A stretch of DNA of 64,000 nucleotides from Streptomyces sp. NBC_01260 (GTDB taxonomy: Bacteria > Actinomycetota > Actinomycetes > Streptomycetales > Streptomycetaceae): positions 1 through 64,000 of the forward strand of contig NZ_CP108464.1 in NCBI RefSeq assembly GCF_036226405.1. Direction: 5' to 3'. Within the stretch, counting starts at the first letter, position 1; each line of letters opens with the position of its first letter. Below the pieces are notes generated by a model, which was given only the letters and a program-made list of their open reading frames with translations, searched no databases and had not been told where the DNA came from. Below, piece after piece: positions 10,761 through 31,112 of the stretch. Both the position numbers and the translations under genes were made by a program.

Positions 10761-10810
10761 GTCACAGAACGTAACACCGTCCACTGACAAGGGACTCGCG
10801 GCCTCTGTAG

Positions 10811-11779: not shown

Positions 11780-12921
11780 AGCGATGTTGGTCGCGCCGAG
11801 GGCTTTGAGGGCTCCGATCGCGAGGTTGCGGAGGGTGGCCATGACGTGGGGTGCGTTGCCGGCGTGGACGGTGGAGGCGTCTTCGGCGAAGGTACGGTCG
11901 CGGATGTGGTGCTGGGCTTCCACGGTCCAGTGTCCGCCCAGGTGGGAGGCGAGTTCGGCCGGTTTCGCCTGGTGGGCGTCGAGGCTGGTGACCGCGTAGA
12001 CGGTCTCGCGGGTCTCCTTCCTGCCGGTTGCTTTGCGGCGGCGGTGGACGCGGAGGGCGAGCTTCGCGTGGGGGAAGGCGATGCCGCCGAGGTTGTCGGC
12101 GATGGCGAGAGTCTTGACCGAGCGAGACTCGCGACGGCCGTGTCCCTTGTTCGAGGCGGTGTGCTGGATGGCCACCGCGTGCCAGTCCAGACCGTCCAGC
12201 TGGGCCCAGGCGGTGGGCTGGTTGGGCTTGATCACGGCCACGTAGTGCGCCTTCTTGGTCTCCACCAGCCAGGCGACATTGGCCCTCACCGAGTGCAGCG
12301 CGTCGAAGGTGACCACGTCTTCTTCCAGGTCGAGCGGTGCAAGCAGGGGCTGGAAGTGCCGTGTCTCGTTGGTCTTGGACCCAACCTCGGTCTGGGCGAG
12401 GGTGACCGGGCGGCCGTGGGTGACGGCGGACAGAAGGTGCCGGCGGGGCTGATCCAGGCGGGCGGAGCCGCGCAGTGCCTTGCCGTCCACGGCGATCACC
12501 CGTCGTCTGTCCGGGGCTGCGGCGGTATGGCGGTGAGCCAGCCAGGCTCCGACGGCCGCATCGAGTGCGTCGGCGTCGAGACGCTCGAGGACCCTCCCGA
12601 TCGCGGACCTGGACGGTGCATGCCGCCAGTGCAGCAGGTGACGGCGCACGTCGAGCGCGGCGAGCAGCCCGGCGTCGGCACAAGGGCGCCCCACTCGGCG
12701 AGTTCGTCGATGGTCCGGGCTCCTGAGACCGCGGCGGCCGCGCAGACCAGCAGGATCGAGGCCAACGAGTACCAACGGCCCCGCCGGGAGCGAGGATCGG
12801 GCACCGCCTCCAGGAAGAACCGCAGGTCAGCCACGTCGTCCGGGTTGAGCGGACCCAACTTGGCCAACACGGCAGGGATCGGGGAAGATGAGACAGCGGA
12901 CACGGGAACCCTCTTGATCAC
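11762..12921 (-). pseudogene. ISAs1-family transposase, frameshifted and 3'-truncated
   Basis: The N-terminal part (frame from 12921) has the DDE_Tnp_1-associated segment (LRFFLEAVPDPRSRRG). The C-terminal part (frame ending 11762) has the ISAs1 catalytic domain, including AVDGKALRGS, an FDALH block and VEAQHHIRD. The two lie in different frames that swap near 12690, so the gene is broken by an indel. The stop codon at 11762 is supplied by the inverted repeat of the neighbouring IS5, which replaced the normal C-terminal ~20 residues. The element is therefore dead. Confidence 0.8.
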
Positions 12922-13006
12922 TCGGCTTAGACACCTGAATGATCACGGATTCCGTGTCCGCTCTGTCATCCACCCCAACTCGCCGCAACCTCACGCCAGT
13001 TGGGCG

Positions 13007-13116
13007 AACCCGGAACTGCGCAAGCCCTGCTCCGCCCTGACCGGCGTCTGCAACATCGCCGCCGGCCTCCGCCGGACAGCCCGGCCCGCACTCTCACCCT
13101 GCTCGGTCTCACATGA
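13007..13116 (+). pseudogene. Second ISAs1-type transposase remnant (C-terminus)
   Basis: On the plus strand, codons resembling the ISAs1 C-terminus are present: an L-R-K..SALTGVCNIAAGLRR segment and, after a one-base shift, ARTLTLLGLT followed by TGA at 13114-13116. This is the ending missing from the transposase at 11762, but in the opposite orientation and in decayed form. Confidence 0.55.
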
Positions 13117-13180
13117 TCAAGAAGGACGAGGCCCAACTACGCCGAGGCCCTGCTCCTGAAACTGAACCGTAGTTTTCTTC

Positions 13181-14062
13181 TCACCGGTAAGAGCGAAGCG
13201 CACGGTGCAGTGCAGCAAATTCCTTCGATGGCGTAATACCGGGAATTTGCATCACTTCCCGCACTCTGCGAGCGTTACTTCCCATGCAGCTTGAAGATTC
13301 AGGCGCGATTTTCCAGGTCATGCCGCTGGGGTAGAAATATTCATCCTCGCCAGGGCTGAGGATAGCTAGGGGGCCAATACCGAGGTCAGTACCATCCGCG
13401 TCGTGGAGCTGAATCGTCACGACTCCCATCCAAGGCGACTTGCCGGCCTCCTTCGAATCGGGGCCGACGGTCAGGGAAAAACGGTCGTTCTCCCCGGACT
13501 TCACATCGAAGACCACATCTTCTTCGGTAGCTTTAGTGAATGGAGGTTTCTGCGAAAGAGGGATTTCGATGGCGTAGTGTGCCGAAGTCCCCAGGTCCCC
13601 ACCCGTCCCTCCGCAGGTTTTGAGGTTCTCCGAGATTTCCACATTCGCACTTACCTTCGTAATGATCGCCGAGCCACTTCCACGATTACGGACGGCGATA
13701 TTGATCTCTGAGCCGCTGAGTCCTGTGACCTCCTTCTTTGAATCTCTCGATGTCTCGACCCCTTTCAACTTGTCAGTAAACCGTGCGCTTACAGCAGTGA
13801 CTTCCAGAAGCCCCCTGCGCTCGGCTTCCTTCTTCCCTGTCTCCGCTTGGCTGTCACCGCTCATTGCCGAGTCCCACGCAGGAATCAGTGCGACGATGCT
13901 GAGAACCAGCGCCACAGACGCGATCAGTGTGCCGGGTGTGCGCCAGCCGTCTGCTTGCTGCGGCGGCACAGGCGGATTCGCACCCTGCTGCGGCGGCACA
14001 GGCGGATTGGCACCCTGCTGCGGCGGCACAGGCGGATTGGCACCCTGCTGCTGCGATGACAA
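13181..14062 (-). CDS. Membrane-anchored protein with proline-rich tandem-repeat N-terminus
   Basis: 293 residues from a TTG at 14062 preceded by GGGAGGG. The N-terminus is three to four copies of a 10-residue unit (QQGANPPVPP), then one transmembrane helix at about residues 45-64 (LIASVALVLSIVALIPAW), then ~220 residues predicted to be extracytoplasmic or soluble and beta-rich. Similar proline-rich-TM proteins occur in actinobacterial regulatory or secretion contexts, but this family is not recognised. Base composition is clearly lower in GC than the flanks, which it shares with the next gene, suggesting they arrived together. Confidence 0.6.
   Translation of the reverse strand: MSSQQQGANPPVPPQQGANPPVPPQQGANPPVPPQQADGWRTPGTLIASVALVLSIVALIPAWDSAMSGDSQAETGKKEAERRGLLEVTAVSARFTDKLKGVETSRDSKKEVTGLSGSEINIAVRNRGSGSAIITKVSANVEISENLKTCGGTGGDLGTSAHYAIEIPLSQKPPFTKATEEDVVFDVKSGENDRFSLTVGPDSKEAGKSPWMGVVTIQLHDADGTDLGIGPLAILSPGEDEYFYPSGMTWKIAPESSSCMGSNARRVREVMQIPGITPSKEFAALHRALRSYR
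13954..14052. repeat. 30-bp tandem repeat inside a coding region
   Basis: Three near-identical 30-bp units (core CGGCGGCACAGGCGGATT) encode the QQGANPPVPP repeat of the minus-strand membrane protein. Exact in-frame copies suggest recent expansion by slippage or unequal exchange. Confidence 0.85.
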
Positions 14063-14126
14063 AGCATCCCTCCCGTTATCCTAAATAGACACAAAAGCTT
14101 CACCGTATCGAATATCAAAGCGAAAC

Positions 14127-15491
14127 TTAGCCAAAGAATAGGTCACCTGTGGAAACGTCGTAGACTGTGATCTCCTCTCCGTTGTGGCAATAAATCAGAT
14201 CGTTGGTGACGATCTGAACCGCACCTTTCAAGGGGGATGACCAAATATCCTCGCCTCCTGCCGTGTCGACGGCGCGAACCTTTGGCCCTTGAGTGTTGAC
14301 CAAAATCACCCCTGAAGGCCCTGGAAGCATTTCAGATGACAGTTCACCCCCTACTCGCCACTGCTCCTTACCCGTTTCAGGATCAAGCGCAAGAAGAGAA
14401 TATTCTCCGTTGACGCGAACGGAAAAATGGACAATGAGAAGGTCATCGTGAAGCACCATTTGCAGCGGCGTTACCGGCTCCGGCAGCGGAATGGACCAGA
14501 CTGTCCTACCCGTGTCGCTATGCAGGGTAATTAATTTCTCATCCGTCACTAGGTGAAGGAGTCCTCCCCCCGAGAGAAATGAGGCATCCGAAGACATTAA
14601 TGCTCGAGTCCATTCAACTCGATCATTTTCAACGGAAAGCGTACGCAATTCCCCCGGCGCGGTAACGAACACAGTAGTTCCGTCATCCTGGCGCCTTTCG
14701 ACATTGCGAATCCCAACCAAATGAACCAAACTGCCGGCCACTTTGATTCCCAAGTCGCTAGCGTCTGGGATTTCTTCAGCCCAAATTAATTTCCCTGTCT
14801 CACGATCCAGCGCCATAGCCCCGAACGGCTCCACACCTTTATGGGTGAAAATAAGAATGTTTCCGTGCGCGATAATTTGACCCGCTTGAAATACCTTGAC
14901 TCGCCAGAGGATCCTGCCCGTTTTCGCAGACAATCCAAATACGTGGTCCTGCGTGGCGGCTACGACAAAGGCGCCAGATTTAGCAATCTCCACTACCTGG
15001 TTTCCAGGTAACTTTCGCCGCCACATGCGCTTTCCGTTGGCTGCGCATAGCGCTACGACCTCGCCGGTCGTGTCCCCGTCGCCACCCCCAACCAGGACCT
15101 GCCCCCCGGCTGCAATCACTTGCGGATAGTACGGCTCGCCCCATTTATCCGGCTCACCTGCATTCCCTGCAGAGCTGCGCCATTTGAGGCGGCCGCTGCG
15201 CGCTTCCCTCAACCACACTGTGCGGTCCCCCTCTGCCCCGCTCAACCAGGGCCCAGACAGAGAAAGCGAAGTACGTAAAGCACCCGAGAAAGGCACAGGC
15301 CACACCGGCGCCCCGGGCGACGGGGTCAACTCAGGCCAGGACGGGCAGCGATGGGCGACACGATCTTTCCCGTCTGTCGCGCTGTCGCCCGAGCAGCCAG
15401 AAATCCCAGCAAGGGCACAAGCCGAAGACGTACCCCACCATACGAATGATCTTCTCGTCATGCCGCTGGATGTCACGAGCCCACCGTCCAT
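14127..15491 (-). CDS. PQQ-like beta-propeller lipoprotein
   Basis: 454 residues from ATG 15491, with GGAGGGG 7 nt upstream. The N-terminus has a twin-arginine-like TRRSF, a hydrophobic core and a lipobox (LAGISGC, Cys near residue 33), so it is probably an exported lipoprotein. The rest shows repeated G-x-x-x-W strands with D-x-x-T/S-G-K/R turns (DRETGKLIW, SAKTGRILW, DPETGKEQW), the hallmark of PQQ-type seven- or eight-bladed propellers. Such proteins usually bind partners rather than PQQ. It lies 64 nt upstream of the repeat-tailed membrane protein in the same direction, so the two probably form an operon. Lower GC than the flanks. Confidence 0.75.
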   Translation of the reverse strand: MDGGLVTSSGMTRRSFVWWGTSSACALAGISGCSGDSATDGKDRVAHRCPSWPELTPSPGAPVWPVPFSGALRTSLSLSGPWLSGAEGDRTVWLREARSGRLKWRSSAGNAGEPDKWGEPYYPQVIAAGGQVLVGGGDGDTTGEVVALCAANGKRMWRRKLPGNQVVEIAKSGAFVVAATQDHVFGLSAKTGRILWRVKVFQAGQIIAHGNILIFTHKGVEPFGAMALDRETGKLIWAEEIPDASDLGIKVAGSLVHLVGIRNVERRQDDGTTVFVTAPGELRTLSVENDRVEWTRALMSSDASFLSGGGLLHLVTDEKLITLHSDTGRTVWSIPLPEPVTPLQMVLHDDLLIVHFSVRVNGEYSLLALDPETGKEQWRVGGELSSEMLPGPSGVILVNTQGPKVRAVDTAGGEDIWSSPLKGAVQIVTNDLIYCHNGEEITVYDVSTGDLFFG

Positions 15492-16270
15492 CGCTGCACC
15501 CCTCCAGGAGAGTCACGCCACACGCCAGCCGCCACCCAGCTTGATCGCGCGTGACGAGCTCAACGGACCTCAGATCTTACGGCTCGTCAGGTGGCGACAA
15601 GGGGCCAACTTGAAATCATCAGGAGAATCTGCCTGCTCCTGCCGGTGGGGGGAACTTCACAATGATCACGAAGACCGTGCCTGCTCTGCTATGCACGCCA
15701 ACCGGTCACTACCCGACCAACCGCACGACCCCGGAACTTGCAACCGCCCTGACATCTGAGGCACTGTGTGATCCCGAGTTCCCCCGGCCTTGGTCGCGCG
15801 CTTCCCCGACGATGCTTTACCCACCCGTTTTCCCTCCCTGCCTAGTCGTACGTTCCATTCGTACACGGAACCGCGACGCTGATGCCCACGCTTTCGGCAG
15901 GCCGCGGTCGGCGCGTGCCAGCAGGGCGGCCGGGGAAGGTGACGCTTCACGCCGGGAGCAGCGAGCGGAGGACGCGCGTCGGCGTGAAGCGCAGAGGCAG
16001 GAGGTGGAGATCCGTCCAGGTAGCGCCGTAAGGCGTGGCTGGCTTCCCCGCTTGTCAGAAGGCCCAGCGGAGGCGCGATGAAGCCAAGGCGCGGAGGGAC
16101 GCACAGAAGGCCCGGGGTCCGGTGTTGTGGCCGTGGATCGGTCGGTGTTCGCAGGTCAGGGGCGCAACGCGGACTCTGTTGCACAGGGCGGTGTTGCGCG
16201 AGGCGCTGTGATCCTTCGTGCGGTCGGGCGCGGTCCCGGGCCTCGGGTGCGAGGGCGCCGGGATCCCCGG
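15492..16270. other. Intergenic stretch with no confident gene
   Basis: About 780 bp between the lipoprotein gene and the PIWI-RE region. A short block at 15660-15690 resembles the outer end of the ISAs1 copy near 12940 (AATGATCACG followed by a CCGTG.CTGCTCTG pattern), so decayed IS DNA is possible. Frames here have no consistent coding bias, and I name no gene. Confidence 0.4.
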
Positions 16271-16498
16271 CTACCGACGGCGCGTGATGCCGAACCGGCC
16301 GCGGGGCCTTGCCGCGCGTTCGGTCTCATGCGCCTGGCGGCGCGCGACGCGCTCAGCCTTCGCGCGGTCGGCGGCCTCCGTCGCGCACGGCCCGCACAGC
16401 CGGTCCCACTCCCCCGGCCACGAAGACCGCATGGTCTCCTGCCAGCGCTCGTCGGTGAACTTCCTTCCGCGGCGCCTGCGGGTCGCTGTTGGGGGCAC
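16271..16498 (-). CDS. Possible small basic protein
   Basis: 75 residues from GTG 16498. The protein is basic, with an RGRKFTDERWQE segment, a CxxC (LCGPCAT) and an Arg/Ala/Glu-rich helical tail. It has no clear ribosome site. The composition looks coding, but no family is recognised and it could be the remains of a larger gene. Confidence 0.35.
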   Translation of the reverse strand: MPPTATRRRRGRKFTDERWQETMRSSWPGEWDRLCGPCATEAADRAKAERVARRQAHETERAARPRGRFGITRRR

Positions 16499-16647
16499 GA
16501 CGCTGTTGGCCCCGGTCCGGAGGCAGCCGGACGCGAGTTCGTCCGGAAGACCACCGCAGAGCGCACGTCGGACCGGGATCACCGGATCAGGGGAAGATCC
16601 CCGAACTCCCGTGCCCTCCCCCAGGGCGGGGGGGTTGAGGTTGTGGC

Positions 16648-17880
16648 ATGGGCTCGATGCGGTGGGGGAGGACCGGGGTGTCGGTGGTGGCCGGGACGGC
16701 AGCGGCCGTTCAAGAACTCGACGTGGGCCAGCGCGCAGCGCTCGACGCCTGCGTGGTCGCGGCGTTGGCCTTGAGTAGCAGCGAAGGCGAGGCACAGGGG
16801 CGGATGCGGCTGCTGATGGAGTGCCATGGTCGCTACGTGCGCTCGTTCGGGGTCCTTGAGCAGGCACCGTCGTACGAGGTGTTCACCCGTTGGCTCTGCG
16901 GAAGCCGGGTGGCCGACCTTTTGCCGGGACGGCCCCAGGGATCAGTGCTCGGCAAGCTGTGGCTGCTCGATGACGACGGCATGCCCAGCTCGGCGCTGCA
17001 CCGGCTCGCGGTGGAGGCCTCTGAGCACGGCCACCAGGCCCCGGGGATCGGTGCCGACATCCGCCATCTGCACAGCCTGCTGCGGGCGGTGGGAATGCTG
17101 CCGGTGAGTACCGGGCTGTCACGGATCTCCGGCGAGACCGTCCAGCACGCCGTCTTTCGCGCGCTGGGGGCCGCCGGCTTCGAGGCGTACACCCGGGGCC
17201 GGGAGGCGATGGTCCGCACGCCCGTCCTGACACGGCGTGTTTTGTCCCGGAACACCGCGTTGGTCGAGCTGGGCGCGTACACCGGTATCTCCCCGACGCG
17301 GCAGTTCGGCGGCCTGTGGGCAGCGTGTCCGATGTGCAGTTGGACGATGCGGGCCGTCTACCGCCCCAACGGCGTGGTGGATGTCGAGTGTGAGGACGAG
17401 CGCCACAGCCTGCTGGGCGCCCGGTACCGGGCCGAGCCGACTGCGATGGAGGGCTGGCGCCTGGCCCCGTGCGGCGAACTGCGCACCGTGCCGGAGCTGC
17501 TGCCCGTGGAGGGCTATGTGGCGTTGCCCTACGCCCTGTGGCTGTGGGTGACGCTCCCGGGCCTGCTGGAGGTCGAGCTGCGCGACCGGCTGGTCGCTTT
17601 GGGCGCGGAGGTGCGGCTGTGGCCGTTCGGCGACGCGTATGACCTGCATGTCACTCGTCCCGGCTGGTCCAGGGTGTGGCGCGTCGACGTCAAGACCTGG
17701 GCCGATCCGTACGGGCTGGCCCAGAAGTTGCGCGAGGATCCCGAGGGGCCCGGCGAGCTGTGCTTCGTGGTGCCTGAGCACCTGCGGGGGTATCTGCCGC
17801 TGCTGCGCCGGGTGGTGCGGAGCAGCGGGGCCCGGGTGCTGACCGATGCCGACTTGGTGGCGGAGGTGGAGGGGGCGTGA
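16648..17880 (+). CDS. pPIWI-RE-associated restriction endonuclease-like protein
   Basis: First gene of the PIWI-RE cassette, 410 residues. The middle part has a zinc-ribbon-like pair (CPMC at 227-230, Cys248, Cys275). The C-terminal part is a PD-(D/E)xK nuclease fold: a candidate Glu near 309, Asp332 in YDLHV, and D-V-K at 347-349. Association of such a REase-fold protein with a PIWI-RE protein and a DinG-type helicase is the described three-gene PIWI-RE architecture (Burroughs, Iyer and Aravind). It overlaps the helicase gene by 4 nt (GTGA), implying coupled translation. Start could alternatively be the ATG at 16657. DNA cleavage is predicted from the intact D-D-x-K residues. Confidence 0.78.
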   Translation: MGSMRWGRTGVSVVAGTAAAVQELDVGQRAALDACVVAALALSSSEGEAQGRMRLLMECHGRYVRSFGVLEQAPSYEVFTRWLCGSRVADLLPGRPQGSVLGKLWLLDDDGMPSSALHRLAVEASEHGHQAPGIGADIRHLHSLLRAVGMLPVSTGLSRISGETVQHAVFRALGAAGFEAYTRGREAMVRTPVLTRRVLSRNTALVELGAYTGISPTRQFGGLWAACPMCSWTMRAVYRPNGVVDVECEDERHSLLGARYRAEPTAMEGWRLAPCGELRTVPELLPVEGYVALPYALWLWVTLPGLLEVELRDRLVALGAEVRLWPFGDAYDLHVTRPGWSRVWRVDVKTWADPYGLAQKLREDPEGPGELCFVVPEHLRGYLPLLRRVVRSSGARVLTDADLVAEVEGA

Positions 17881-20800
17881 GCAGGACGCTTGCCGGTGCT
17901 CTGGCCTTGGCCGAGTATCTTCTTCCCGCCCGGTTCCGCGACGGGCGGCAGGTGGTGCGCGTCGCGGACGCCCATGTCCTGCTGAGCGGGCACGCGCCGC
18001 GTGTCGTGGCGGGCTGGGCGCAGTGGTCGGAGGCGGACAAGCAGCGCCTCGGTGCGCTGTTGGGCACCCGCCATCGGGGTGAGGCGCTACTGCACCACGT
18101 CGAACGGACCGTCTACGACGTCTTCCACACCCCGGACGCGGACGACCCGCTGCCCGCTCTCTACGCGCTCGGGTACCACGAGCGTGGGCGGGCGTTTGAA
18201 GTGCTGCCGGCTCACGGGCAGGACCCTTCGGACGTCGCCGAACGCCTGCTCGCGCCGGCTAAGCCTCGGCGGCTGCTGCGGGTCGCGAGCGGATCGGGCT
18301 GGTCGGCGCCGACATCGCGTGGGCGAGTCCAGCTCGCTTTCCCCGACGAGCAGGGGGTGTACAGGCCGCCTCAGGTCGTGACCGCGCCGGCGGTTGAGTT
18401 GGTGGTGGACGCCGATGAGCTCGGCTGGCAGAGCCGGGACACCGACCAGGATATGCAGGGCCCGGCTTTCCGTGAGAAGCAGATCGCGCTGCTGCTGCGC
18501 GGGACCATCGGTGGCGGGCAGCGCCCCTTGGAACCCGTCGTCCTGCCGCCGGGCCGGACGCACCTGCTGAGTGCGCCCCCGGGCGTGGGCAAGAACGTCT
18601 TCGGCCGAGGCCTGGCGATCCAGCAGGCGGGCCTGGACCGCACCACCGTGCTGGTGGTCAGTGACAACGGCGATGTCTACGGCGAGGCCTCCACCTTGCA
18701 GCAGGAGCTGCGGGCGGCGGGCGTCAAGGAGACGGCCACGCCGTTCATCGCCCCCAACAGCCGGTACAAGTTCGCGCTGCGCTCCGCCGCGAAGCTGGAG
18801 GGCACCGGCGTGCCGCTGGCGCAGGCCTCGGCCAGCATTGCCTTCCTCGTCAACAACTCCGCCTACGGGTGCGCCGCGCAAGCGCAGCTGGAGGGACGTG
18901 ACGCCTTTGAGGGCGGCAGGGAGCCGTGCACGGTTGCGGCGTCGGATGCTTTTGGCCAACCGGAGCGGGCTCTGTGCCCGTATGTGTCGTCCTGCGGGAA
19001 GTTCTCCCACGTCGAGGCCGCAACGACGGCCAGGATCATCGTGACCACCCACGCCTGTTTCCAGTCCGGGATGATCAAAGTTCCGGTGGAGGTCGACGGG
19101 GAGGTCCGCAACAGCATCAGCGTGCGGGAGTTCCTTCTGCGCCTGGCGTCCTATGTGGTCGTCGATGAGGTTGATGCCTACCAGTCGCGGGGGTTCGGTG
19201 AGTGCGGCGAGCTGGAGCTCGCGTCCCGCTCCCGCCCGACCACGGTGCTGCGGCGCATCCGCGACAGCCTGCACCAGGCGCCGCCTCGGCTGGCGGTGGC
19301 GGTGCGCCGGCCCCTGACCCGGGCGGTATTCCTGGCTGAGCAGCTGCTCGACCTGGTGGCCGGGGAGGAGGTCTGCACCGAGGTCGCCCAGGCCCAGGCC
19401 CTGGCCCGTGGGCAGGACCCGCGCCGGACGCGGCAGGTCCTGCAGGACCGCAAGCGCTGGTATCAACCCCATCAGTGGGACCGGCATCTGCTGGAGAACC
19501 TGATCGGGGTGGATCCCGAGGCCGCGGCCACCGCCGAGCAGGCCGACTGTCTGCAGGCTCTACTCCCGCGCGTGGCCACCCGGCCGGGCGACCGGCCTTC
19601 CTGCGCTGTCCTGCCGGATCGGCTGCGGCCCGTCCCGGGCGTGCTGGAGCGGATGCTCACGATCGACGAGGGCGGGGAGTGGCAGCTTGCTTCCTTCAAG
19701 GACGAACTGCGGGAGATCGTCTCCACCGCGCTGCCCGCCTTCTGCGCTGCCGAGAACGGAGCCGACGGAGCACCTGCCGAGTCCACGGTGCCGGCACAGC
19801 GCGGGCTCGACCGGCCGGAGCCGGTGCAGGCGCTCACGCGCACCGAGGTCACCGCGGGCGTCCTGCACGCGTTGATGATGAAGACGTGGCTGACGGCCAT
19901 CGTCCACACGATGTTCACCCTGACGGACAGGGCCGGCGAACTCACCGGGCACGGCATCGACGCTGCCTCCGAGCTCTCCGACGCCATCGGCCACCGGGGC
20001 TCCGGCACCGTCGTCCCGTTCGGTCCTTTGGGCCGGCAGCTGGGCGGTTTCCGCTTCGAGGGGCTGGACGATCCGGGTGGCCACGCGAGTTTCAAGATGG
20101 AGGTGCTGCGCGCCGATCCCCATACCGAGACGCAGTTCCTCGGCAGCATCGTCTCCCTCGCCCTGAGCGGCCGCCAGCGCACTGTCCTAGGCATGTCCGC
20201 CACCGGGTTCATGCCGGGCGCGGCACGCACCCACCTGCTCGCCCGCCCCGACTGGGCGATGCCCGACACCCTCCGAGATGGTCTGACCATCTTCAACAGC
20301 ACCCCTGTCGCCGACGGCAAGCTCTTGGCTGTCGGCAGCACCCCCTACCGCGAACGCGACCAGCGGGTCATCTCTCTGGCCGCCGGCTACGCACCGGGCC
20401 TGGTGCGCGACCTGGACCGGCTGGCCGCAGACGCGCGCACCCGCCATCGTGCGCGGGCCCTGATCACCGTCAACTCCTACCGGCATGCCCGCCTGTTCGC
20501 CCAGGCCCTGTACGACACCGCGCTCGCCCTCGGACGGCGGCTGCGGATCTACGTCGCCGTCGCGGATACTCCCGACCCGTCTCTGCCGCCGGTCTGCGAT
20601 GCGATCGGCCAGCTCACCCGCGACCGTTTCGCGGAGCTGGCGGACCTCGACGGTGAGGTGCTCATCTCGCCGCTGCCGCGCACCGAGCGGGGCTTGAACG
20701 TGCTAACCGTGTTCGAGGGCATCGCCGTGTCGGCCATCACCCTGATCGCCATGGGTGTGCGGCCGGTCATGCCGGCCGAGGACCCTGCGGTGCTGGCGGC

Positions 20801-21245
20801 CAGTGTCGCCGCCCGGGCCTGGCGCGACACCGTACCCGGCGACGACCCCGCCGCCGTACTGGCCCGGGCCCGCGCGGCGGCCGACGCGCACCTGCGCCTG
20901 AACCTCAACGCACCCAAGCGCTTCTCCGCCCTGCCCGACGAGCTGAAGTACGAACTCGTCGCCACCCTCCTCGGGCAGAGCGTCCAGTTGGCAGGCCGCG
21001 GACGCCGCGGGCAGACCCACGTCGAGCTCCACTTCATCGACGGCGCCTTCCACGACCCCACCTGGGGATCCGACCTGCCCACCCTGATCCGGGGATGGCT
21101 CGAGCAGTCCCCGCAGGACGACCTCGCCCAGCTCGGCGCTTCCTACGGCCACACCGTCGAGGAATTCGCCGAGTACGCCCACGCCCAGCACATGCTCCCC
21201 GCGCTGCGCGCGGGCTTTGACTCCTACCTGGGAGAGTACGCATGA
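17877..21245 (+). CDS. pPIWI-RE-associated XPD/DinG-like helicase
   Basis: A 1122-residue protein, second in the cassette, GTG start overlapping the upstream stop. Walker A is at 233-240 (APPGVGKN, with Asn in place of Ser/Thr). Four cysteines follow at 332, 351, 367 and 373, placed between the nucleotide-binding loop and Walker B as in iron-sulphur XPD/DinG helicases. Walker B is DEVD at 430-433. Late motifs include RTERGLNVL near 935 and QLAGRGRRGQ near 1034. The N-terminal ~200 residues probably correspond to the pPIWI_RE_Z-type module. In the described systems the helicase is thought to unwind the nucleic acid that PIWI-RE binds. ATGA overlap with the next gene. Confidence 0.82.
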   Translation: MSRTLAGALALAEYLLPARFRDGRQVVRVADAHVLLSGHAPRVVAGWAQWSEADKQRLGALLGTRHRGEALLHHVERTVYDVFHTPDADDPLPALYALGYHERGRAFEVLPAHGQDPSDVAERLLAPAKPRRLLRVASGSGWSAPTSRGRVQLAFPDEQGVYRPPQVVTAPAVELVVDADELGWQSRDTDQDMQGPAFREKQIALLLRGTIGGGQRPLEPVVLPPGRTHLLSAPPGVGKNVFGRGLAIQQAGLDRTTVLVVSDNGDVYGEASTLQQELRAAGVKETATPFIAPNSRYKFALRSAAKLEGTGVPLAQASASIAFLVNNSAYGCAAQAQLEGRDAFEGGREPCTVAASDAFGQPERALCPYVSSCGKFSHVEAATTARIIVTTHACFQSGMIKVPVEVDGEVRNSISVREFLLRLASYVVVDEVDAYQSRGFGECGELELASRSRPTTVLRRIRDSLHQAPPRLAVAVRRPLTRAVFLAEQLLDLVAGEEVCTEVAQAQALARGQDPRRTRQVLQDRKRWYQPHQWDRHLLENLIGVDPEAAATAEQADCLQALLPRVATRPGDRPSCAVLPDRLRPVPGVLERMLTIDEGGEWQLASFKDELREIVSTALPAFCAAENGADGAPAESTVPAQRGLDRPEPVQALTRTEVTAGVLHALMMKTWLTAIVHTMFTLTDRAGELTGHGIDAASELSDAIGHRGSGTVVPFGPLGRQLGGFRFEGLDDPGGHASFKMEVLRADPHTETQFLGSIVSLALSGRQRTVLGMSATGFMPGAARTHLLARPDWAMPDTLRDGLTIFNSTPVADGKLLAVGSTPYRERDQRVISLAAGYAPGLVRDLDRLAADARTRHRARALITVNSYRHARLFAQALYDTALALGRRLRIYVAVADTPDPSLPPVCDAIGQLTRDRFAELADLDGEVLISPLPRTERGLNVLTVFEGIAVSAITLIAMGVRPVMPAEDPAVLAASVAARAWRDTVPGDDPAAVLARARAAADAHLRLNLNAPKRFSALPDELKYELVATLLGQSVQLAGRGRRGQTHVELHFIDGAFHDPTWGSDLPTLIRGWLEQSPQDDLAQLGASYGHTVEEFAEYAHAQHMLPALRAGFDSYLGEYA

Positions 21246-23998
21246 GTCGCCCGCTCGACAGCGTCGCTCGCAAGCAGGCGCGCCTGCTGCAGTTCCGCAC
21301 CGCTCCCGCCGACCTGGGCGAGGTCATCGCCTACCGGCCCGAGGCTCCCGTGCTGGATCTGGCCATGGAGCTGTCGCGCGAGTACAAGCGCAACGTCGGC
21401 ACCGGTCTGGACGTGCAGCCCCCCTACCGGGCACTGGAGTGTGTCCTGCGCGCGGCGGCGGGCACCTGGGCGCGCTGGCAGTGGAACGACGGCTGCTACG
21501 AACTCCTGTGCGCGGCGCCGATCAGCGCCGAGGACCGGCACGACGTGTTCCGCTACTGGGCCGAAGCCGTGGTCCTCGGGCCCGACGGCCAGCGCATCGG
21601 CGAACAACTGGCCGAACTCCTCGCCCGGGCCGAGCCCCGCTCCGCCGTCCTGCCCGCGCCGCCGAGCGCCGGCAAACGCTCGCGCGCATGGTGGCCGGGC
21701 GAACTCGCCCGCTGGCGCCTGGCCGAGGAACTCGCCGCCCTCGAGTGGCCCCGCAACAACGGCACCCCCGTCCGTTTCACCCTGTGCACCGACGGCCGGC
21801 TGGCCGCGATCGGCCACGAACTGCCCGCCCAACCCGACCGCAAGGGCGTCGTGCGGCACCTGCTGCCCCGTATCACCATCGGCACCGCCGCCAGCGGTCA
21901 CTCCCGGCGCCACGCGGTGACCGTGAACGCCACCACCACCCTCCTCGCCACCTCCTGGAAGAGGGTCGCCACCGTCCTGCTGGCCAACCCTGACCAGCCG
22001 CTCGTCGTCTCCGCAGCCGCCGACGGCCCGCCGTGGAAACGCCGCCTGAACGTCCCCGCGGTAGCCGCCAGTCGCCGCCTGGCCGCCCTGCCCCGCCTGA
22101 GCGCGAACGTGCCTCCCTTCCCCGAGCACCTCGCCGACGACGCCCTGGCCGACACCGCCCCGGGGCCGGTCTGGGCCGTCGCCCCAGCCAGCGCCCGCAC
22201 CCCCGGCCTGGGCCGCGGACACGGCATGGAGTTCTTCCGCCACATCGAAGAAGCCATCGACAGCCGGTGCGAGAAGTACAGCCACCGCAGCCCCGTGTTC
22301 ATCGAGGTCCCCGGCATCAAGGTGCCTCCCACCGAGAGCGGCTCACGCGTCAGCGGACCGATCCCCTTCGAACGGATCCCCGCCGCCCTGGACGCCGCCG
22401 GCGTGGGCACCCTCCTCGTCCCCGTCCTGTGGAGCACCGACGAGGTCCGCGCCCGGGTGAAGGGCGCGATCGCCGACCAGTGGGGCCCCGGCGAGGACTG
22501 GAAGGCCGTCGACGGTGTCGCCGAACCCGTCGCCGGCGGGCGTATCGAGGTCGTCTTCCTCCACGACAAGACCGATGCCCTCGGCCACGGACCGCGCACC
22601 AGCGCGGAGCGCGAGCGGGACCTGGCGCAACTGCTCGCCCCCTACACCCGCGAGGACATGCTCGTCGCGGCGATCTGCGAGACCGACTGGGACCCCGAGC
22701 GCTGGTACCCGAGCGTCGAAGCCCGCGAGAAGGCCGAGGCCGAGGACGGCAAGTGGCCCTCCAAGCAGGCTCTCGCGCGCCTCGCAACGACCTCCCAGTA
22801 CATCAAGCAGGCCCCGCCGCCGGTCCCCACCCACACCCGGGAGGGCAAGCCCTACAACGAGAAGTACCGCGCGAAGAAGGTCGCCTCCCGCCAGAGCGGC
22901 CTCGACAGCTCGACCGCGAACGTGCTGCGCGAGATCCTCAGCGGCGTCGGCGCCACCGACCACCGCCTCGGTGCCGCGTTCGGCAAACTGCCGCTCGAGA
23001 ACTGGTGGCACATCGGCATCCACGTCCGCCGCCACGCCCAGCGCCGCACACCCGGCAAGCGCCGTACCACCGAACCAGCACCGATCACCGCAACCCTCAC
23101 CGCGATGCGCCCCACCGGCGGGAAGGACGACCCCTGGCAGGTCTGGGCCTACAGCCCCCAGGCCGGGCAGTGGCAGCCCCACAGCCCGGCCACAACAGCG
23201 CTGCACGCCACCGACCTCGCATGGGACGTCAGCGGATACCGCGCCGCCGCGGACGAGACACTCCAGGCCCGTGCCGCCGCGGACATCGTCGAGCAGGCCC
23301 TCATCGCCATCCGCACCCAACTCCCCGCAACAGCCCCCGCCGTCCTCTACGTCGACGGCGACGCCGCCGAGTACATCTGGGCGGGCCTAACCGACGAAGC
23401 CCTGGGCCAGGACCCGCCCCCCGGCATGCCCCGGCCGGCATCCTGGCTGCCCGGCCACAGCCTCCCCCGCGCCCAGCGCCCCCTGGCCACCGTCCGCGTC
23501 ATCGGCGACCTGGAACGCATCGGCCGCCCCACCGGGGCCCACATGCGCACCAGCGACGGCACCTGGCGCGCCACCGACACCACCAACAGCCTCTTCCAAC
23601 TCGCCACCGACACCGGTGCCGTCACCTTTCCCGATCTCCTGCTCGTCAATGTCCCCCGCACCTGGGCCGCCGGCCCCGCCGGCCGCTTCGGCAAGGACGA
23701 GACACGCTTCGACAGCGGCATCCAGAGCAAGAACGGCTACGCCCACACCGCCACCCGGTTCACCGTCATCGCCCAGAGCCCCGACGCCGACTGCGACCTC
23801 ATCGGAGCTGTCGCCGCCGTCCTGACCAACCAGGGCATCACCTCCGACGTCCGCCAAAGCGCCCCCACCCCCCTCCACCTCGCCCGCAGGATGGACTCCA
23901 CCCACCCCTACTACCGCCGCACCGCGGAAAGCACCGAAGACGCCCCCGATGCCACCGAAGACGGGAACACCGCGCAGGAGGAGACCACCAGCCTGTAG
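21242..23998 (+). CDS. PIWI-RE family protein
   Basis: 918 residues, third in the cassette, ATG overlapping the helicase stop. The first ~550 residues match the divergent PAZ/MID-like part (pPIWI_RE_X type); the last ~350 residues are the RNase H-fold PIWI-RE module. Visible markers are LYVDGD (Asp705/Asp707) on the first strand, RVIGDLE with R752 and E758 (candidates for the conserved Arg and Glu that name the family), FDSGIQSKNGY around 823 and RRMDSTHPYY near 882 at the C-terminus. Family members are prokaryotic Argonaute relatives found in conflict loci. Together with the two preceding genes this makes an apparently complete system. Domain borders are estimated by eye. Confidence 0.82.
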   Translation: MSRPLDSVARKQARLLQFRTAPADLGEVIAYRPEAPVLDLAMELSREYKRNVGTGLDVQPPYRALECVLRAAAGTWARWQWNDGCYELLCAAPISAEDRHDVFRYWAEAVVLGPDGQRIGEQLAELLARAEPRSAVLPAPPSAGKRSRAWWPGELARWRLAEELAALEWPRNNGTPVRFTLCTDGRLAAIGHELPAQPDRKGVVRHLLPRITIGTAASGHSRRHAVTVNATTTLLATSWKRVATVLLANPDQPLVVSAAADGPPWKRRLNVPAVAASRRLAALPRLSANVPPFPEHLADDALADTAPGPVWAVAPASARTPGLGRGHGMEFFRHIEEAIDSRCEKYSHRSPVFIEVPGIKVPPTESGSRVSGPIPFERIPAALDAAGVGTLLVPVLWSTDEVRARVKGAIADQWGPGEDWKAVDGVAEPVAGGRIEVVFLHDKTDALGHGPRTSAERERDLAQLLAPYTREDMLVAAICETDWDPERWYPSVEAREKAEAEDGKWPSKQALARLATTSQYIKQAPPPVPTHTREGKPYNEKYRAKKVASRQSGLDSSTANVLREILSGVGATDHRLGAAFGKLPLENWWHIGIHVRRHAQRRTPGKRRTTEPAPITATLTAMRPTGGKDDPWQVWAYSPQAGQWQPHSPATTALHATDLAWDVSGYRAAADETLQARAAADIVEQALIAIRTQLPATAPAVLYVDGDAAEYIWAGLTDEALGQDPPPGMPRPASWLPGHSLPRAQRPLATVRVIGDLERIGRPTGAHMRTSDGTWRATDTTNSLFQLATDTGAVTFPDLLLVNVPRTWAAGPAGRFGKDETRFDSGIQSKNGYAHTATRFTVIAQSPDADCDLIGAVAAVLTNQGITSDVRQSAPTPLHLARRMDSTHPYYRRTAESTEDAPDATEDGNTAQEETTSL

Positions 23999-24107
23999 CC
24001 AAGGCGCGCTCACCCCGACGAGGAGTCCCTTGAGGAATTCCGGGATACCGACGCCAAAGCTGACGCCGATGCCCTCCACGCCGCTACGGTCCTGGGACAA
24101 TCTGGCC

Positions 24108-25016
24108 ATGGCGCTCATCCGTGCCATCACCGCGGCCGACTACTCAGTGGTGGCGGCGCTGCTGGCCGCGAACGGTCTGGGAGACGGCTGGGGCTACGAG
24201 CCCGAGGGGCTGAGCGTCGTTGTCGCCGAGCTCCACGAAGCCGTCGTCGGGGTGGCCGAGTTCCAGCTCCACTGCGACTTCGGACACGACGCGTCGTTCA
24301 ATGTCCGGATCGCTGCCCCGGTGCCGGCCCTGCCCACGCGCAAGCAGCGGGACGGCGGGACCGTCGGGGTCGACCTGGGCGTGGCTGTCATCGCGGCGGC
24401 CTCCGAGCCGGTGATCACCGCGCAGGGTAAAACGCAGTTGTTCGAGAACCCCCGGCACCTGGACAACGCGGTGCGCCAGCTGACGAAGTGGCAGCGGCGG
24501 ATGTCCCGCCGCCACGTGCGAGGGCTTCCCGCACACAGGCAGAGCGCGGGCTGGCGGGAGGCCCGGGACCAGGTCGCACGGCTCATGGGGCTGGTCGCGC
24601 AGCGGCGCGCCTCGACACAGCATCTGCTGACGAAGCAGCTCGTGACCCAGTTCGCGCACATCGCGGTCGAGGACCTGCGGGTGAAGAACATGACCCGCTC
24701 CGCGCGCGGCACCCAGGACGCACCCGGGCGGAACGTGGCGGCGAAGGCCGGGCTGAACCGGGCCATCCTCGATGTCGGCTTCGGCGAGATCCGCCGGCAG
24801 ATCGAGTACAAGGCCAAGCGCCACGGCGTCAGGGTCACCGCGGTCAACCCCGCCTACACCTCACAGACCTGCCACCAGTGCGGGCACGTCGACCGCAAAA
24901 GCCGGCGCACCCGCTCCGTCTTCGAATGCACACAGTGCGGACACGCCACCCACGCCGACATCGGCGCCGCCCACAACATCAAACACCGCGCACTCGACAC
25001 CACCGACCAGCGGTAA
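24108..25016 (+). CDS. TnpB C-terminal half fused to a GNAT-like N-terminus
   Basis: A 302-residue chimera. Residues 1-~68 resemble the start of a GNAT acetyltransferase (IRAITAADYSVVAALL, VAELHEAVVGVAEF, CDFGHD). From about residue 75 the sequence is TnpB: RuvC Asp in GVDLGV, Glu in VEDLRVKNM, a CxxC...CxxC zinc finger (CHQCG, CTQCG) and the final Asp in HADIGAAHNI. The TnpB N-terminal lobe that binds the reRNA and TAM is missing. TnpB normally is the RNA-guided nuclease of IS200/IS605 and IS607 elements; here it is probably a truncation product that happened to fuse in frame, although the three RuvC acids are intact. No tnpA is nearby. Confidence 0.75.
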   Translation: MALIRAITAADYSVVAALLAANGLGDGWGYEPEGLSVVVAELHEAVVGVAEFQLHCDFGHDASFNVRIAAPVPALPTRKQRDGGTVGVDLGVAVIAAASEPVITAQGKTQLFENPRHLDNAVRQLTKWQRRMSRRHVRGLPAHRQSAGWREARDQVARLMGLVAQRRASTQHLLTKQLVTQFAHIAVEDLRVKNMTRSARGTQDAPGRNVAAKAGLNRAILDVGFGEIRRQIEYKAKRHGVRVTAVNPAYTSQTCHQCGHVDRKSRRTRSVFECTQCGHATHADIGAAHNIKHRALDTTDQR

Positions 25017-25046
25017 GAACCAGGCACTGAAGGTCGAGGACACACC

Positions 25047-25235
25047 ATGAGTGAGACAGCACAGATGACCGGCGGCCCGCTGAACGGGCAGACCGTCGAA
25101 CTCCACCCCGTCCAGGAGCAGAACGGTGAGTACGGCGCCTTGGTGGGCGGGGACACCGGCCCCGGTGACCCCGCCTACGTACGCGACGGACACGGCCGGT
25201 GGTGCTGGCAGGGCAAACCCTGGCCCACCAACTGA
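25047..25235 (+). CDS. Small hypothetical protein
   Basis: 62 residues, starting MSETAQMTGGPLNGQT. It is acidic and Gly-rich, ends with WCWQGKPWPTN, and resembles small Streptomyces accessory proteins of unknown role. A GGTCGAGGAC ribosome-like stretch lies upstream of ATG 25047. It starts 30 nt after the TnpB chimera in the same direction, so it may be transcribed from the same promoter. The ~240 nt that follow hold no clear gene. Confidence 0.55.
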   Translation: MSETAQMTGGPLNGQTVELHPVQEQNGEYGALVGGDTGPGDPAYVRDGHGRWCWQGKPWPTN

Positions 25236-25473
25236 CCGGCACCGCCGCACCCGCGCCCCCAGCCCAGCGCTGGCGGGGCCGAAGAAGCCACCTGGGCTAC
25301 CACGCGTCGACGTCGCATCCGACGAACGAGAACCGCAGGTGGCCACCCGTACCACCGAACAGGTCAGCCACGCCATCCTCCTCACAGCTGAGGCCGGTAG
25401 CGGTATCTTGCCGTGCGACGCATCCGCAGAATGATCAACTATCGCGACTGACGAATCCGAAACCGGGGGAAAC

Positions 25474-25857
25474 GTGAAGGAAGACGATGGTGAAGAAAAC
25501 GGGGAATTTAGCACTGAATCCAACACCGAATCCAACGGTATTCTAACTGGCATCTGGAGTTACTTAGGAATTGGCGTCGGGCTATTTCTGATGCTTGATT
25601 ATGTATACTCCCTCGACCTTAAACCTGGTGAAAAACCGTCATGGGAGCAAGACGTGGTCTTCTGCTCTCTCCTCCTCGGCCCTATAGCTCTTCTCTCACT
25701 ACTCGGAGAGGAGTTGGCTCGAGAGATAAGAAAGGGAAAGCTCTCTTATTCAACATACTGGTCAACCTTTTTCGCTGTCACCGCAGCCGTGTGCACATTT
25801 CTAGGCATCACAAGTATTGAAGATGTTAAAAAGATATTCGATTCGTGGGATTGGTGA
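25474..25857 (+). CDS. Small integral membrane protein, low GC
   Basis: 127 residues from GTG 25474 with GGGGGA 5 nt upstream. An acidic, Asn/Ser/Thr-rich N-terminus (residues 1-24) is followed by hydrophobic segments at about 27-45, 65-82 and 98-115. No family is recognised. Codon use is noticeably richer in A and T than the neighbours, as in the 13-15 kb pair, pointing to transfer. Its 3' end overlaps the convergent gene by 57 bp. Confidence 0.6.
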   Translation: MKEDDGEENGEFSTESNTESNGILTGIWSYLGIGVGLFLMLDYVYSLDLKPGEKPSWEQDVVFCSLLLGPIALLSLLGEELAREIRKGKLSYSTYWSTFFAVTAAVCTFLGITSIEDVKKIFDSWDW

Positions 25858-26832
25858 ATTCACTTCAGCTCCCGCGTTACCGGATCGGTCACAGTGAGCC
25901 TTTTCCACTTGATCAGGTGGCGAGTTCGAGAGCTGGTACTGCTGGACGAAGCCGGGGTCCTTCAGCCGGTCGGGCTCGGGCAGCTGCTTGTGCGGGTCAG
26001 ACCGGCGCTGCCCGGCGAGCGACCAGCCCATGGGGCGCAGTCCGGCACGGCCCATGTCCCGGTCGACTCCCGCCAGGTAGTCCGCGTCGACGGGCAGCTC
26101 CCAGTTCGACTGCCAGATCAACCCGTCCAGGGCGATGGGGAGGTGCGGGAATCCGAAGAGGAAGCCCAGACAGCGCTCGCGCAGCACTGCCGCGCTCTGC
26201 TCGGGGCTCAGCGGGACGCCCTTCTCTTCGTTCCCGGGGCCGGGGAGTGCGGTCCTGCAGTCGGTGTCGGGGAAGATGTCGATCTCCCCGATCACGACGT
26301 GCGCCGTTGCGTTCTCACGGTCGGGGTAGGACCAGTGCTTCGGCACAAGGACGATCACGTCGTGGGTGCCGAGAGCGTCGGTCACCGCCGACGTGAGCGG
26401 GCTGCGGTCGGTGCGGGGCAAGCCGCGGTCGCTCTCCTGCGAGGCGTGGCGGACCTGCCACATGCAGGCGTGGTGTGTCAGGAGGCCGGGGCCGTCCGGC
26501 GAGGCCCACAGCGTGCTGGTCGTCGGCTCCGGCGGGGTGGCCGGCTCAATCTTGCGGCGGCCCCGGCCGCGACGCGCGCCGCTCATGGTCCAGCTCCAGT
26601 AGTCCTCGGCTTCCTCGAGGAGCAGGACCCGCTGTCCACTGTGTGCCCAGGCCGCCGCGATCCCGCCAACCAGGTGGTAGAGGTTCCCTGAGCGCTCCGC
26701 CAGGAACCGCAGGACGTGTGGTGCGTGCGGCGCATCGCCGGTCCCCGCACGGCGCAGGGCCTCGGTGTACTTGGCTCCGCCCCGGCTCGCCCTGCGGGCG
26801 GTCTGTGCGGCGGTGGACTGGTTCTTCGGCAT
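25801..26832 (-). CDS. Hypothetical Streptomyces plasmid/ICE-type protein, possibly a degenerate P-loop protein
   Basis: 343 residues from ATG 26832 with GAGGAG 7 nt upstream. The N-terminus (AAQTARRASRGGAKYTEALRRAG) is typical of proteins from Streptomyces mobile elements. A segment with GNLYHLVGGIAAAWAHSG and then QRVLLLEE has the layout of a ParA/SIMIBI nucleotide-binding loop plus first strand, but the GK(T/S) signature is absent; DVIVLVPKHW further on could be the second strand. So it is either a degenerate ParA-like protein or unrelated. It lies just outside the IS630 left end. The last ~20 residues overlap the convergent membrane-protein gene. Confidence 0.5.
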   Translation of the reverse strand: MPKNQSTAAQTARRASRGGAKYTEALRRAGTGDAPHAPHVLRFLAERSGNLYHLVGGIAAAWAHSGQRVLLLEEAEDYWSWTMSGARRGRGRRKIEPATPPEPTTSTLWASPDGPGLLTHHACMWQVRHASQESDRGLPRTDRSPLTSAVTDALGTHDVIVLVPKHWSYPDRENATAHVVIGEIDIFPDTDCRTALPGPGNEEKGVPLSPEQSAAVLRERCLGFLFGFPHLPIALDGLIWQSNWELPVDADYLAGVDRDMGRAGLRPMGWSLAGQRRSDPHKQLPEPDRLKDPGFVQQYQLSNSPPDQVEKAHCDRSGNAGAEVNSPIPRIEYLFNIFNTCDA

Positions 26833-28055
26833 GACGTACTCCTCTGCCGGGCCGGGCCACGCCCCCGGTCCCGGCTCGTACGACTGCCGTGGACACGACG
26901 GAACGCAGAACGGGAAGGAGCGGGCCCCGCAGGACCTTGACCCCCGCGTCCGGCGGCGTGGCTCCGGAGGCGGGCGGTGATCGGCAGTACGCACTAGTGT
27001 GATGCGCCAGAAATCCCATGGTTAGTCAGTACCCTGTTGTCATGTCACATCCCGGCCCTTCTGCTGTGAAGATCACGTTGTCAGGGGAAGAGCGTGCCGA
27101 GTTGGTGCGCCGGACGGAATGGCCAGACCGGCGCTCGGCCGAGAAGGCTCGGATCCTCCTGGCGTGCGCTGAGGGCATGTCGAACGCGGGTGTCGCACGC
27201 GTCGTCGGTGTCCAGGCCAAGACGGTTGGCAAGTGGCGTCGGGCTTTCGCCGCAGAGCGGATGGCCGGGCTTGAGGACGCCGGCTGGATCGGCCGACCCA
27301 AGGCCGACCTGGTCCTGAACGAGGCTGAGCGGACGCAGCTGACGCAGTGGGCGCGGCGGGCGAAGACCGCCCAGTTCCTCGCGTTGCGAGCCAAGATCGT
27401 GCTGCGCTGCGCGGAGGGCGGGACGAACCAGCAGGCCGCGGCCGACCTCGGCGTCGACAGATCGACCGTGGACCGCTGGCGGGCCCGGTTCATCGCCCAA
27501 CGCCTCGACGGTCTGCACGACGAGCCCCGCTCGGGTCGGCCACCCTCGATCCTTCTCGACCAGGTCGAAGAGGTCATCGTGGCCACCCTGGAGTCGACCG
27601 CGGGCAGAGACACCCACTGGTCACGGGCCTCGATGGCTCAGCGCACCGGCCTGTCGAAGTCGACCATCGGCCGGATCTGGAAGAAGTTCGACCTCAAGCC
27701 GCACCTGCAGGACTCCTTCAAACTGTCCACCGACCCGCAGTTCGTCGCCAAGGTCGTCGATGTCGTCGGTTTGTACCATCACCCGCCCGAGAAGGCGGTC
27801 GTGCTCTGCGTGGACGAGAAATCCCAGATCCAGGCCCTGGACCGCTCACAGCCGGTCCTGCCGATGATGCCGGGCATGCCCGAACGCCGGACCCACGACT
27901 ACTACCGGCATGGCATCACCAGCCTGTTCGCCGCCTTCAACATCACTGACGGAACCGTTGTCGGCGTACTCGCGTATGTGCAGAGGTGCGTACGGTTGAA
28001 CGTGCAGAGCAAGTAGCCGCCCGCTGCGCTCATTGCCATGCGAGAGGATGGGGCG

Positions 28056-28460: not shown

Positions 28461-28469
28461 GTCCCCGGA

Positions 28470-31075: not shown

Positions 31076-31112
31076 CCGGTGCCAGCCACCAGACCCAGTC
31101 CAAGGGAGCCTC

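Follow-up and report, generated by a model that had tools for sequence, protein, structure and literature searches.

The pPIWI-RE three-gene system, in which REase and DinG genes accompany the gene for the pPIWI-RE protein, was predicted in 2013 (Burroughs, Iyer and Aravind 2013, PMC3702460). Among the literature matches listed, one biochemical study was devoted to pPIWI-RE. PsPIWI-RE of Pseudomonas stutzeri DSM4166 cuts, with D525 and D610 as catalytic residues, and carries the signature residues R639 and E718 (Huang et al., 2022, PMC10991935). RsAgo is a long Argonaute which is RNA-guided and binds DNA (PMC10991935).

We identified a complete three-gene pPIWI-RE operon which belongs to a distinct Streptomycetaceae clade and is present in both arms of the terminal inverted repeat of a linear Streptomyces chromosome. 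The window, the whole stretch of 64,000 nucleotides that was analyzed, comprises bases 1-64000 of the 9,124,354-bp contig C1. Its operon has the same three genes in the same order as the system predicted in 2013, including an REase with a zinc ribbon and a putative N-terminal helical region, a cysteine-rich DinG-type helicase, and a PIWI domain (PF13032) in a protein that retains the signature Arg. It differs from that system in that the signature Glu is replaced by Arg, the Walker A motif of the helicase reads GKN, the MID and X models have no match in the window protein, and the cassette is found on plasmids in this clade and here in a chromosomal terminal repeat. The PsPIWI-RE gene likewise overlaps the upstream dinG by its first four bases; in contrast to PsPIWI-RE, strand beta1 of the window protein lacks acidic residues, and the residue presumed equivalent to E718 is Arg. 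In alignments, the window PIWI protein is 10-12% identical to RsAgo, which is not known to have the pPIWI-RE signature or the operon. DdmDE is an anti-plasmid system composed of the Argonaute DdmE and the helicase-nuclease DdmD; its likeness to the window operon (Argonaute, helicase and nuclease) would be one of function only, and the proteins are different.

Organization of the operon and its three proteins

The sequence-only reading of the window had described three open reading frames joined by 4-nt overlaps, and these were found as described (410, 1122, and 918 amino acids; Table 1), all on the + strand in the order REase, DinG, PIWI. This order on one strand is also found in relatives. 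The outer limits of the cassette differ among seven plasmid copies (left 16219-16579, right 23943-24050), by which exact mobile-element borders are ruled out. The presence of a known guide RNA gene within the cassette was likewise rejected, the single Rfam match having a score below the gathering threshold and lying inside a coding region, and a search of the cassette for a repeat array found none.

Table 1. Features of the window and of the encoded proteins
Feature	Position	Strand	Details
Telomere and adjacent helicase-like gene	1..3684	.	gene 805-3681, HA and ResIII domains
Left arm of terminal inverted repeat	1..64000	.	mirror image at other C1 end
Operon cassette	16551..24035	+	unit common to plasmid copies, 91-94% nucleotide identity
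Gene 1, REase protein (Y-like helical region, zinc ribbon, PD-(D/E)xK-type nuclease)	16648..17880	+	410 aa
REase catalytic stretch	17641..17694	+	D332 (17641-17643) to D347-V-K349 (K349 codon 17692-17694)
Gene 2, DinG/XPD-like helicase (PprDinG)	17877..21245	+	1122 aa, GTG start; 4-nt overlap with gene 1
Helicase Walker A SAPPGVGKN	18570..18596	+	Asn240; Ser in most relatives outside the clade
Gene 3, pPIWI-RE-family protein, full-length Argonaute-like predicted fold	21242..23998	+	918 aa; 4-nt overlap with gene 2
His594, strand beta1 (589-597)	23021..23023	+	catalytic Asp expected there; beta1 without acidic residue
Asp705, end of beta4	23354..23356	+	putative second catalytic position; D in 20/31, N in 11/31 clade rows
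Glu710	23369..23371	+	Glu in 31/31 clade rows; Arg in 63/64 other rows, Lys in 1
Arg752, signature Arg of pPIWI-RE	23495..23497	+	31/31 clade rows; strand 749-754
Arg839, signature Glu position	23756..23758	+	strand 836-844; Arg in 31/31 clade rows, Glu in 62/64 others

The first protein matches the pPIWI_RE_REase model PF18154 (1.8e-23), and its D-D-x-K residues are present as had been proposed. A zinc ribbon (C227/C230/C248/H253) is present too. The predicted nuclease thus has its catalytic residues (D332, D347, K349) in place; the nuclease motif is missing in one compared row, L060, in which the frame is broken. The helical Y domain scores 22.2 bits with PF18156, below the Pfam cut-off of 26.7, and 9.4e-06 in PADLOC. 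The protein possibly starts at GTG 16678 (400 aa), since the match starts at residue 5-8 in ten of 13 relatives and a length of 400 aa is annotated in five of the seven plasmid copies.

The XPD/DinG-like helicase of the earlier reading was recognized by the PADLOC model PprDinG (2e-69), whereas its score with Pfam DEAD alone is under the cut-off. It has four clustered Cys (332, 351, 367, 373) and DEVD, SAT and Q-GR-RR motifs. The GKN ending of its Walker A motif may impair ATP hydrolysis. In rows L056 and L060, the N-terminal part of the helicase is missing.

The HMM placement of the 918-residue protein in PIWI-RE and the structure prediction, both suggested as checks in the sequence-only reading, gave a PF13032 (RNaseH_pPIWI_RE) match of 2e-52 (179 bits, cut-off 25), a PADLOC PprPIWI match of 1.5e-38, and an Argonaute-like fold. 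The fold match covers nearly the whole protein in the AlphaFold2 model built on a 51-row alignment, which superseded a model from 21 close sequences (pLDDT 52.5, PIWI part mostly <50). The MID and X models (PF18157 and PF13111) had no Pfam match in the window protein at E 0.1; clade members that do match are P0014 and P0016 (PF18157) and P0018 (PF13111). PDB sequence searches with E up to 10 found no convincing relative for the PIWI protein, whose profile had two matches (E 0.45 and 1.6), and no match for the helicase and REase. A profile search (A2) retrieved 10 proteins, of which the named ones are from Streptomyces or Kitasatospora.

Position in the terminal inverted repeat and occurrence in relatives

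The telomeric position claimed for the operon is borne out: the window starts at base 1 of the contig, and the first 800 bp recur exactly at the opposite C1 end and close to the end of a second contig. Many plasmid records likewise have ends that match these 800 bp, and the telomere with its adjacent helicase-like gene (Table 1) matches plasmid ends as well as the end of the 140-kb contig C2 from the same host. As a telomere test, folding the DNA of the first 300 bp gave a weak result (9 of 200 shuffles equally good, z -1.93). The terminal inverted repeat extends over at least 144 kb, and because the operon is located in it, the operon occurs twice in the assembly. The two arms differ at four sites in the first 140 kb, two of which (23873 and 34915) fall inside the window; each is a one-base difference in homopolymer length, with the right arm one base shorter at all four. 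One of the four shifts the right-arm PIWI frame, so that only the left copy has the frame common to relatives, and the consistent direction is the pattern of a consensus error. The claim that all three genes are intact stands for the left copy; in the right arm the assembled PIWI frame is shifted. It was ruled out that the repeat ends inside the right-arm PIWI gene, as it continues to at least 144 kb. The + strand ORF 35958-37961 was rejected as a relaxase; the relaxase piece is on the opposite strand.

Seven copies of the cassette were found on plasmids, five on linear and two on circular records, and a relaxase gene adjoins the operon in four of the seven. The window copy and four of the five linear plasmid copies sit at most 41 kb from a replicon end. 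Telomere proximity is ruled out as a general pPIWI-RE trait, 24 of 26 REase-PIWI loci of other species lying at least 535 kb from the chromosome end (REase-PIWI pairs on single-contig chromosomes; most replicon sizes rounded to 0.1 Mb). Within Streptomyces, REase-PIWI loci from other clades are frequent. The REase domain itself occurs patchily, with 89 of 392 Streptomyces genomes having it.

Comparison with 14 relatives gave dN/dS values well below 1 for all three genes (broken genes represented by their best matching piece; dS >1 for the REase and helicase of L059 and L061), and all three genes are under purifying selection. Four of the 14 relatives are broken (L056, L060, L114, L116), indicating that copies decay often, and one more is cut by a contig end; plasmid NZ_CP107897 retains a 5' REase remnant without the remaining cassette. 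These broken copies, the remnant and the shifted right-arm frame would fit an inert, decaying passenger carried by plasmid and telomere turnover. We consider this very improbable given the low dN/dS values and the conserved active-site residues, and the right-arm shift itself fits a consensus error.

Active-site and signature residues of the PIWI protein

Column counts and a tree were based on 95 rows, consisting of 31 rows of the window clade, whose identity to the window PIWI protein goes down to 52%, and 64 others; rows are non-independent, L059 and P0018 being identical. Omitted were L057 and L060 (cut or broken), P0012 (fragment), L114 and L116 (broken), L107 and L109 (duplicates of L024 and L027), L021 (internal TGA in the match; common state, Glu and Arg), and L022, L023, L026, L030, L031, L085, L094, L098, and L106 (PIWI frame not included). 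In the model, beta1 reads WHIGIHVRR. Position 594, which we take to be the Asp position of slicing Argonautes (DEDX tetrad) from a GxD-type motif, carries His or Tyr throughout the 31 clade rows; the 64 others all have His, Trp or Tyr there. No acidic residue was seen on beta1 in any of the 95 rows, so this trait is not special to the window clade.

Arg752 was assigned as the signature Arg by its strand position and by the R639-E718 spacing in PsPIWI-RE. The expectation that the conserved R/E residues are free of lesions held for the Arg and failed for the Glu, which is Arg here and throughout the clade. As this Arg is clade-wide and the genes are under purifying selection, it is considered a conserved replacement and not a lesion, and, the signature Glu being absent, the protein is filed in a homologous, charge-swapped clade rather than among strict 'R and E' members. 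Positions 710, 752, and 839 are R-R-E in most relatives, E-R-R in the window clade, and mostly R-S-Q in a third clade.

We tentatively suggest that these positions, with 710 following beta4, form one charge triad that has undergone natural charge reversal, in an operon that may act as a plasmid weapon against rival replicons and may have reached chromosome ends via linear-end exchange. As the acidic node has moved with net charge kept, the partner of the family Glu would be the Arg next to the active site instead of, or in addition to, the signature Arg as published. It is nearly an even chance that the Glu-to-Arg and Arg-to-Glu changes are two unrelated, clade-specific substitutions and that the signature residues have no common structural role. 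All 31 clade rows trace to a single event on one branch (a single change in each column, omitting rows without Glu or Arg in the signature column and grouping Lys with Arg in the other), which makes the sample size of the residue association one, and R639A and E718A of PsPIWI-RE retained near wild-type cleavage activity (PMC10991935). In a further 32 proteins (P0035-P0066), Gln or His mostly takes the place of the signature Glu, and the position of the signature Arg mostly holds Ser, Cys, Thr or Ala; the third position is still Arg or Lys, a pattern favoring the published Arg-Glu pairing over a 710-839 pairing. Against unrelated substitutions, the two changes mirror each other, each reverses a charge, and neither varies among the 31 otherwise divergent rows; the net charge of the three positions is preserved. 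The tree was computed with a 'quick' method (SH-aLRT only, midpoint root); a program warning that long branches meet, including that of the clade itself, means that the clade is well supported and its placement among the other clades is not.

Proposed function of the operon

A role in conflict or defense is predicted for the operon. Probably it encodes a PIWI-guided, helicase-assisted and REase-cutting system against mobile DNA, and in this clade the operon is also carried on plasmids. The PIWI protein would bind a short guide and its complementary strand without slicing, as suggested by the lack of an Asp on beta1 and by the Asn at position 705 in 11 of 31 clade rows. The bound hybrid or R-loop would recruit the DinG-like helicase, which would open or translocate DNA, and the REase, with its D-D-x-K and zinc ribbon, would cut. 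Likely targets would be incoming or competing mobile DNA such as plasmids, conjugative elements, and phages; as mobilizable plasmids carry the operon, a role of plasmid against plasmid may equal host defense. A tblastn search against 50,697 phage records found no match, which is uninformative on target type. Points that weigh against the proposed function are the frequent decay of copies, the GKN variant of Walker A, the Y-domain score under the Pfam threshold, and the lack of MID and X matches in the window protein.

The piwi-re deletion in P. stutzeri, in a gene overlapping dinG, resulted in approximately 15-fold lower survival on ciprofloxacin and in filaments, with growth otherwise showing no obvious difference, and this knock-out phenotype speaks against the defense reading (PMC10991935). 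It would suit an operon that aids replication or repair, in which PIWI and DinG would remove R-loops or stalled forks from their own replicon and the REase would process DNA ends, restriction being secondary; DinG acts on R-loops (PMC3702460), and the window copy and most linear plasmid copies lie close to replicon ends. We regard such a repair function as rather unlikely, since the REase domain is patchy in the genus, two of the seven plasmid copies are on circular records, and 24 of the 26 loci in other species are far from chromosome ends. Frequent loss is likewise a poor fit with a housekeeping role.

For the family, a clade with reversed charge at two out of three linked positions offers a direct mutational test of the residues that gave pPIWI-RE its name. 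The 7.5-kb self-contained cassette on mobilizable Streptomyces plasmids is a handy entry to asking what pPIWI-RE systems target.

The operon and the chromosome end

We identified three genes joined by a 4-nt overlap at each junction, an arrangement claimed in the sequence-only reading, and the assignment of the 918-residue product to PIWI-RE agrees with its profile matches (see table). A profile search of NCBIfam (E 0.1) found no family matching the three proteins. GTG 16678 may be an alternative to 16648 as the REase start, because alignments begin at residue 5-8 in 10 of 13 relatives and five of the seven plasmid copies are annotated as 400 aa.

Features of the window
Feature	Position	Strand	Description
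REase gene	16648-17880	+	ORF, 410 aa; PF18154 pPIWI_RE_REase 1.8e-23
Helicase gene	17877-21245	+	ORF, 1122 aa; PprDinG 2e-69
PIWI gene	21242-23998	+	ORF, 918 aa; RNaseH_pPIWI_RE (PF13032) 2e-52, PprPIWI 1.5e-38
TnpB/OrfB-like ORF	23949-25016	+	Cas12f1-like TNB; immediately 3' of PIWI gene
istA/istB pair	28470-30652	-	IS21-type; several more transposase pieces close by
Relaxase piece	37203-38231 (about)	-	truncated TrwC/MobF; 77% identical to C-terminal part of pSglau1 relaxase
Caspase-domain protein	46092-50627	+	1511 aa; EACC1-associated caspase domain, nSTAND1 NTPase, WD40 repeats
Terpene synthase-like frame	54809-57487	-	892 aa; terpene synthase domain, squalene-hopene cyclase-like repeats

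The host genome consists of three contigs (9.28 Mb). The telomeric position proposed earlier was borne out, as the window starts at base 1 of contig C1 (9,124,354 bp) and exact copies of its first 800 bp occur at the opposite end of C1 and near the end of C2 (140,084 bp); many plasmid records also have matching ends. C2 (loci L042 and L044) is a linear-plasmid-like contig of which one terminus shares 3,685 bp with the chromosome end at 99.76%, and the other carries a more divergent telomere-like stretch. The arms of C1 form a terminal inverted repeat of at least 144 kb, which spans the operon, and the operon is therefore present in two copies. Over 140 kb the arms differ at only four sites, all of them homopolymer runs in which the right arm lacks one base. 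One lies inside the PIWI gene, where the right-arm frame is shifted near the C-terminus and runs into that of the downstream TnpB-like ORF; the left-arm frame is the one kept in 20 aligned relatives. The simplest reading is that the right-arm consensus is wrong, and a true difference between the arms is a less simple one.

The TnpB-like ORF looks like a truncated IS605-type gene fused to a truncated acetyltransferase gene, because its 5' portion is matched in plasmid pSglau1 by a stretch that overlaps a gene annotated as a GNAT acetyltransferase. The caspase-domain gene, located 22 kb from the operon and likewise within the terminal repeat, encodes a predicted conflict protein of the cell-suicide type.

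Related cassettes on plasmids and in the genus

Among 392 genomes of the genus, PF13032 matched in 110 and PF18154 in 89, and a REase match lay at most 9 kb from a PIWI match in 99 of 101 cases. The clade of window-type proteins, in which the signature Glu is replaced by Arg, is rare (seven loci among 84,980 species genomes in a two-pattern scan). On single-contig chromosomes of other species, 2/26 REase-PIWI loci were within 60 kb of an end. Two three-gene pPIWI-RE loci of another clade, L101 (genome G058) and L100 (G152), have the REase about 9 kb and 51 kb, respectively, from a single-contig chromosome end.

A tblastn search of 72,556 plasmid records with the PIWI protein gave matches in 15, all from Streptomyces, and the same search of phage records gave none. 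Seven of the 15 carry the window clade (PIWI 90.6-93.4% identical in protein sequence), and these same seven were recovered with the helicase. The plasmid copies and the window are alike over about 7.4-7.7 kb at 91-94% nucleotide identity, with limits near 16551 and 24035, and the window's flanks are mostly absent from them; pSglau1 additionally matches 0.9 kb of the window's terminal helicase gene (74%). All seven plasmids are typed as mobilizable, with a MOBF relaxase. Two are circular; in the five linear ones, the distance from the cassette to the closer terminus is about 6.5, 32, 34, 40 and 107 kb. Four of the seven, and contig L055, have a divergent mobF gene 0.9-1.5 kb upstream of the cassette. 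The relaxase piece of the window represents plasmid-like material in the chromosome arm. In plasmid NZ_CP107897 (L119), the pSglau1 neighbours are retained (97% over 5.5 kb) but the REase gene is reduced to its first part, which together with the stretch upstream makes up a remnant (NZ_CP107897.1, 8561-9138); the cassette was therefore lost there. The remnant adjoins a telomere-helicase-like fragment. Chromosomes and linear plasmids are documented to exchange ends (PMC7205883), and we infer that such an exchange with a linear plasmid brought the operon to this chromosome.

All three genes were open in nine of 14 relatives; a contig end truncates one copy, and four are broken, including two of the seven on plasmids (L114, L116). 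Each of the 41 comparisons gave a dN/dS under 0.5, with values of 0.13-0.35 among copies at least 89% identical.

Proposed mechanism and signature residues

Following the published scheme for the triad (PMC3702460), to which the hybrid-strand preference of PsPIWI-RE is added (PMC10991935), the PIWI protein would act as a sensor that binds without slicing, the DinG-like helicase would open or translocate the bound DNA, and the REase would cut it. The main rival explanation is that the operon serves replication or repair, because deletion of PsPIWI-RE made cells more sensitive to ciprofloxacin.

In the sequence-only reading, lesions in the conserved R/E residues would refute the proposal. In an alignment of 95 rows (31 from the clade, 64 others), the signature Arg (Arg752) was kept in 31/31 clade rows, and in 56/64 others (7 Leu, 1 Ser), but the signature Glu was Arg (Arg839 in the window) in all 31, against Glu in 62 of the others (1 His, 1 Gly). 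Near neighbours align clearly here (HTATEITVL in locus L099 versus HTATRFTVI in the window). Five residues past the second catalytic position, the column is Glu in every clade row (Glu710 in the window) and Arg in 63/64 others (1 Lys). In a quick tree built with the two swapped columns removed, a branch with SH-aLRT 100 separates the clade from the other rows, and one change per trait suffices for each column. Among the matches listed for the open-access literature, at least two papers deal specifically with the family, and no report of a charge-swapped clade was found; PIWI-RE is also mentioned in the Argonaute papers PMC10573157, PMC10515653, PMC11458871 and PMC12564509.

A second clade, of another 32 proteins, had Gln (21), Glu (6), His (4) or Leu (1) at the position of the signature Glu, Ser (18), Arg (6), Cys (4), Thr (2) or Ala (2) at that of the signature Arg, and Arg (30) or Lys (2) at the third. 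Proteins P0035-P0060, which combine PF13111 with PF13032 and of which several are named DUF3893, form a clade with mostly Ser/Cys/Thr/Ala for the signature Arg and mostly Gln/His for the Glu; in them, R and E are not absolutely conserved. The 32 proteins support the published Arg-Glu pairing, and a further partner for the signature Glu is suggested by the window clade; each is a single event, and neither amounts to proof.
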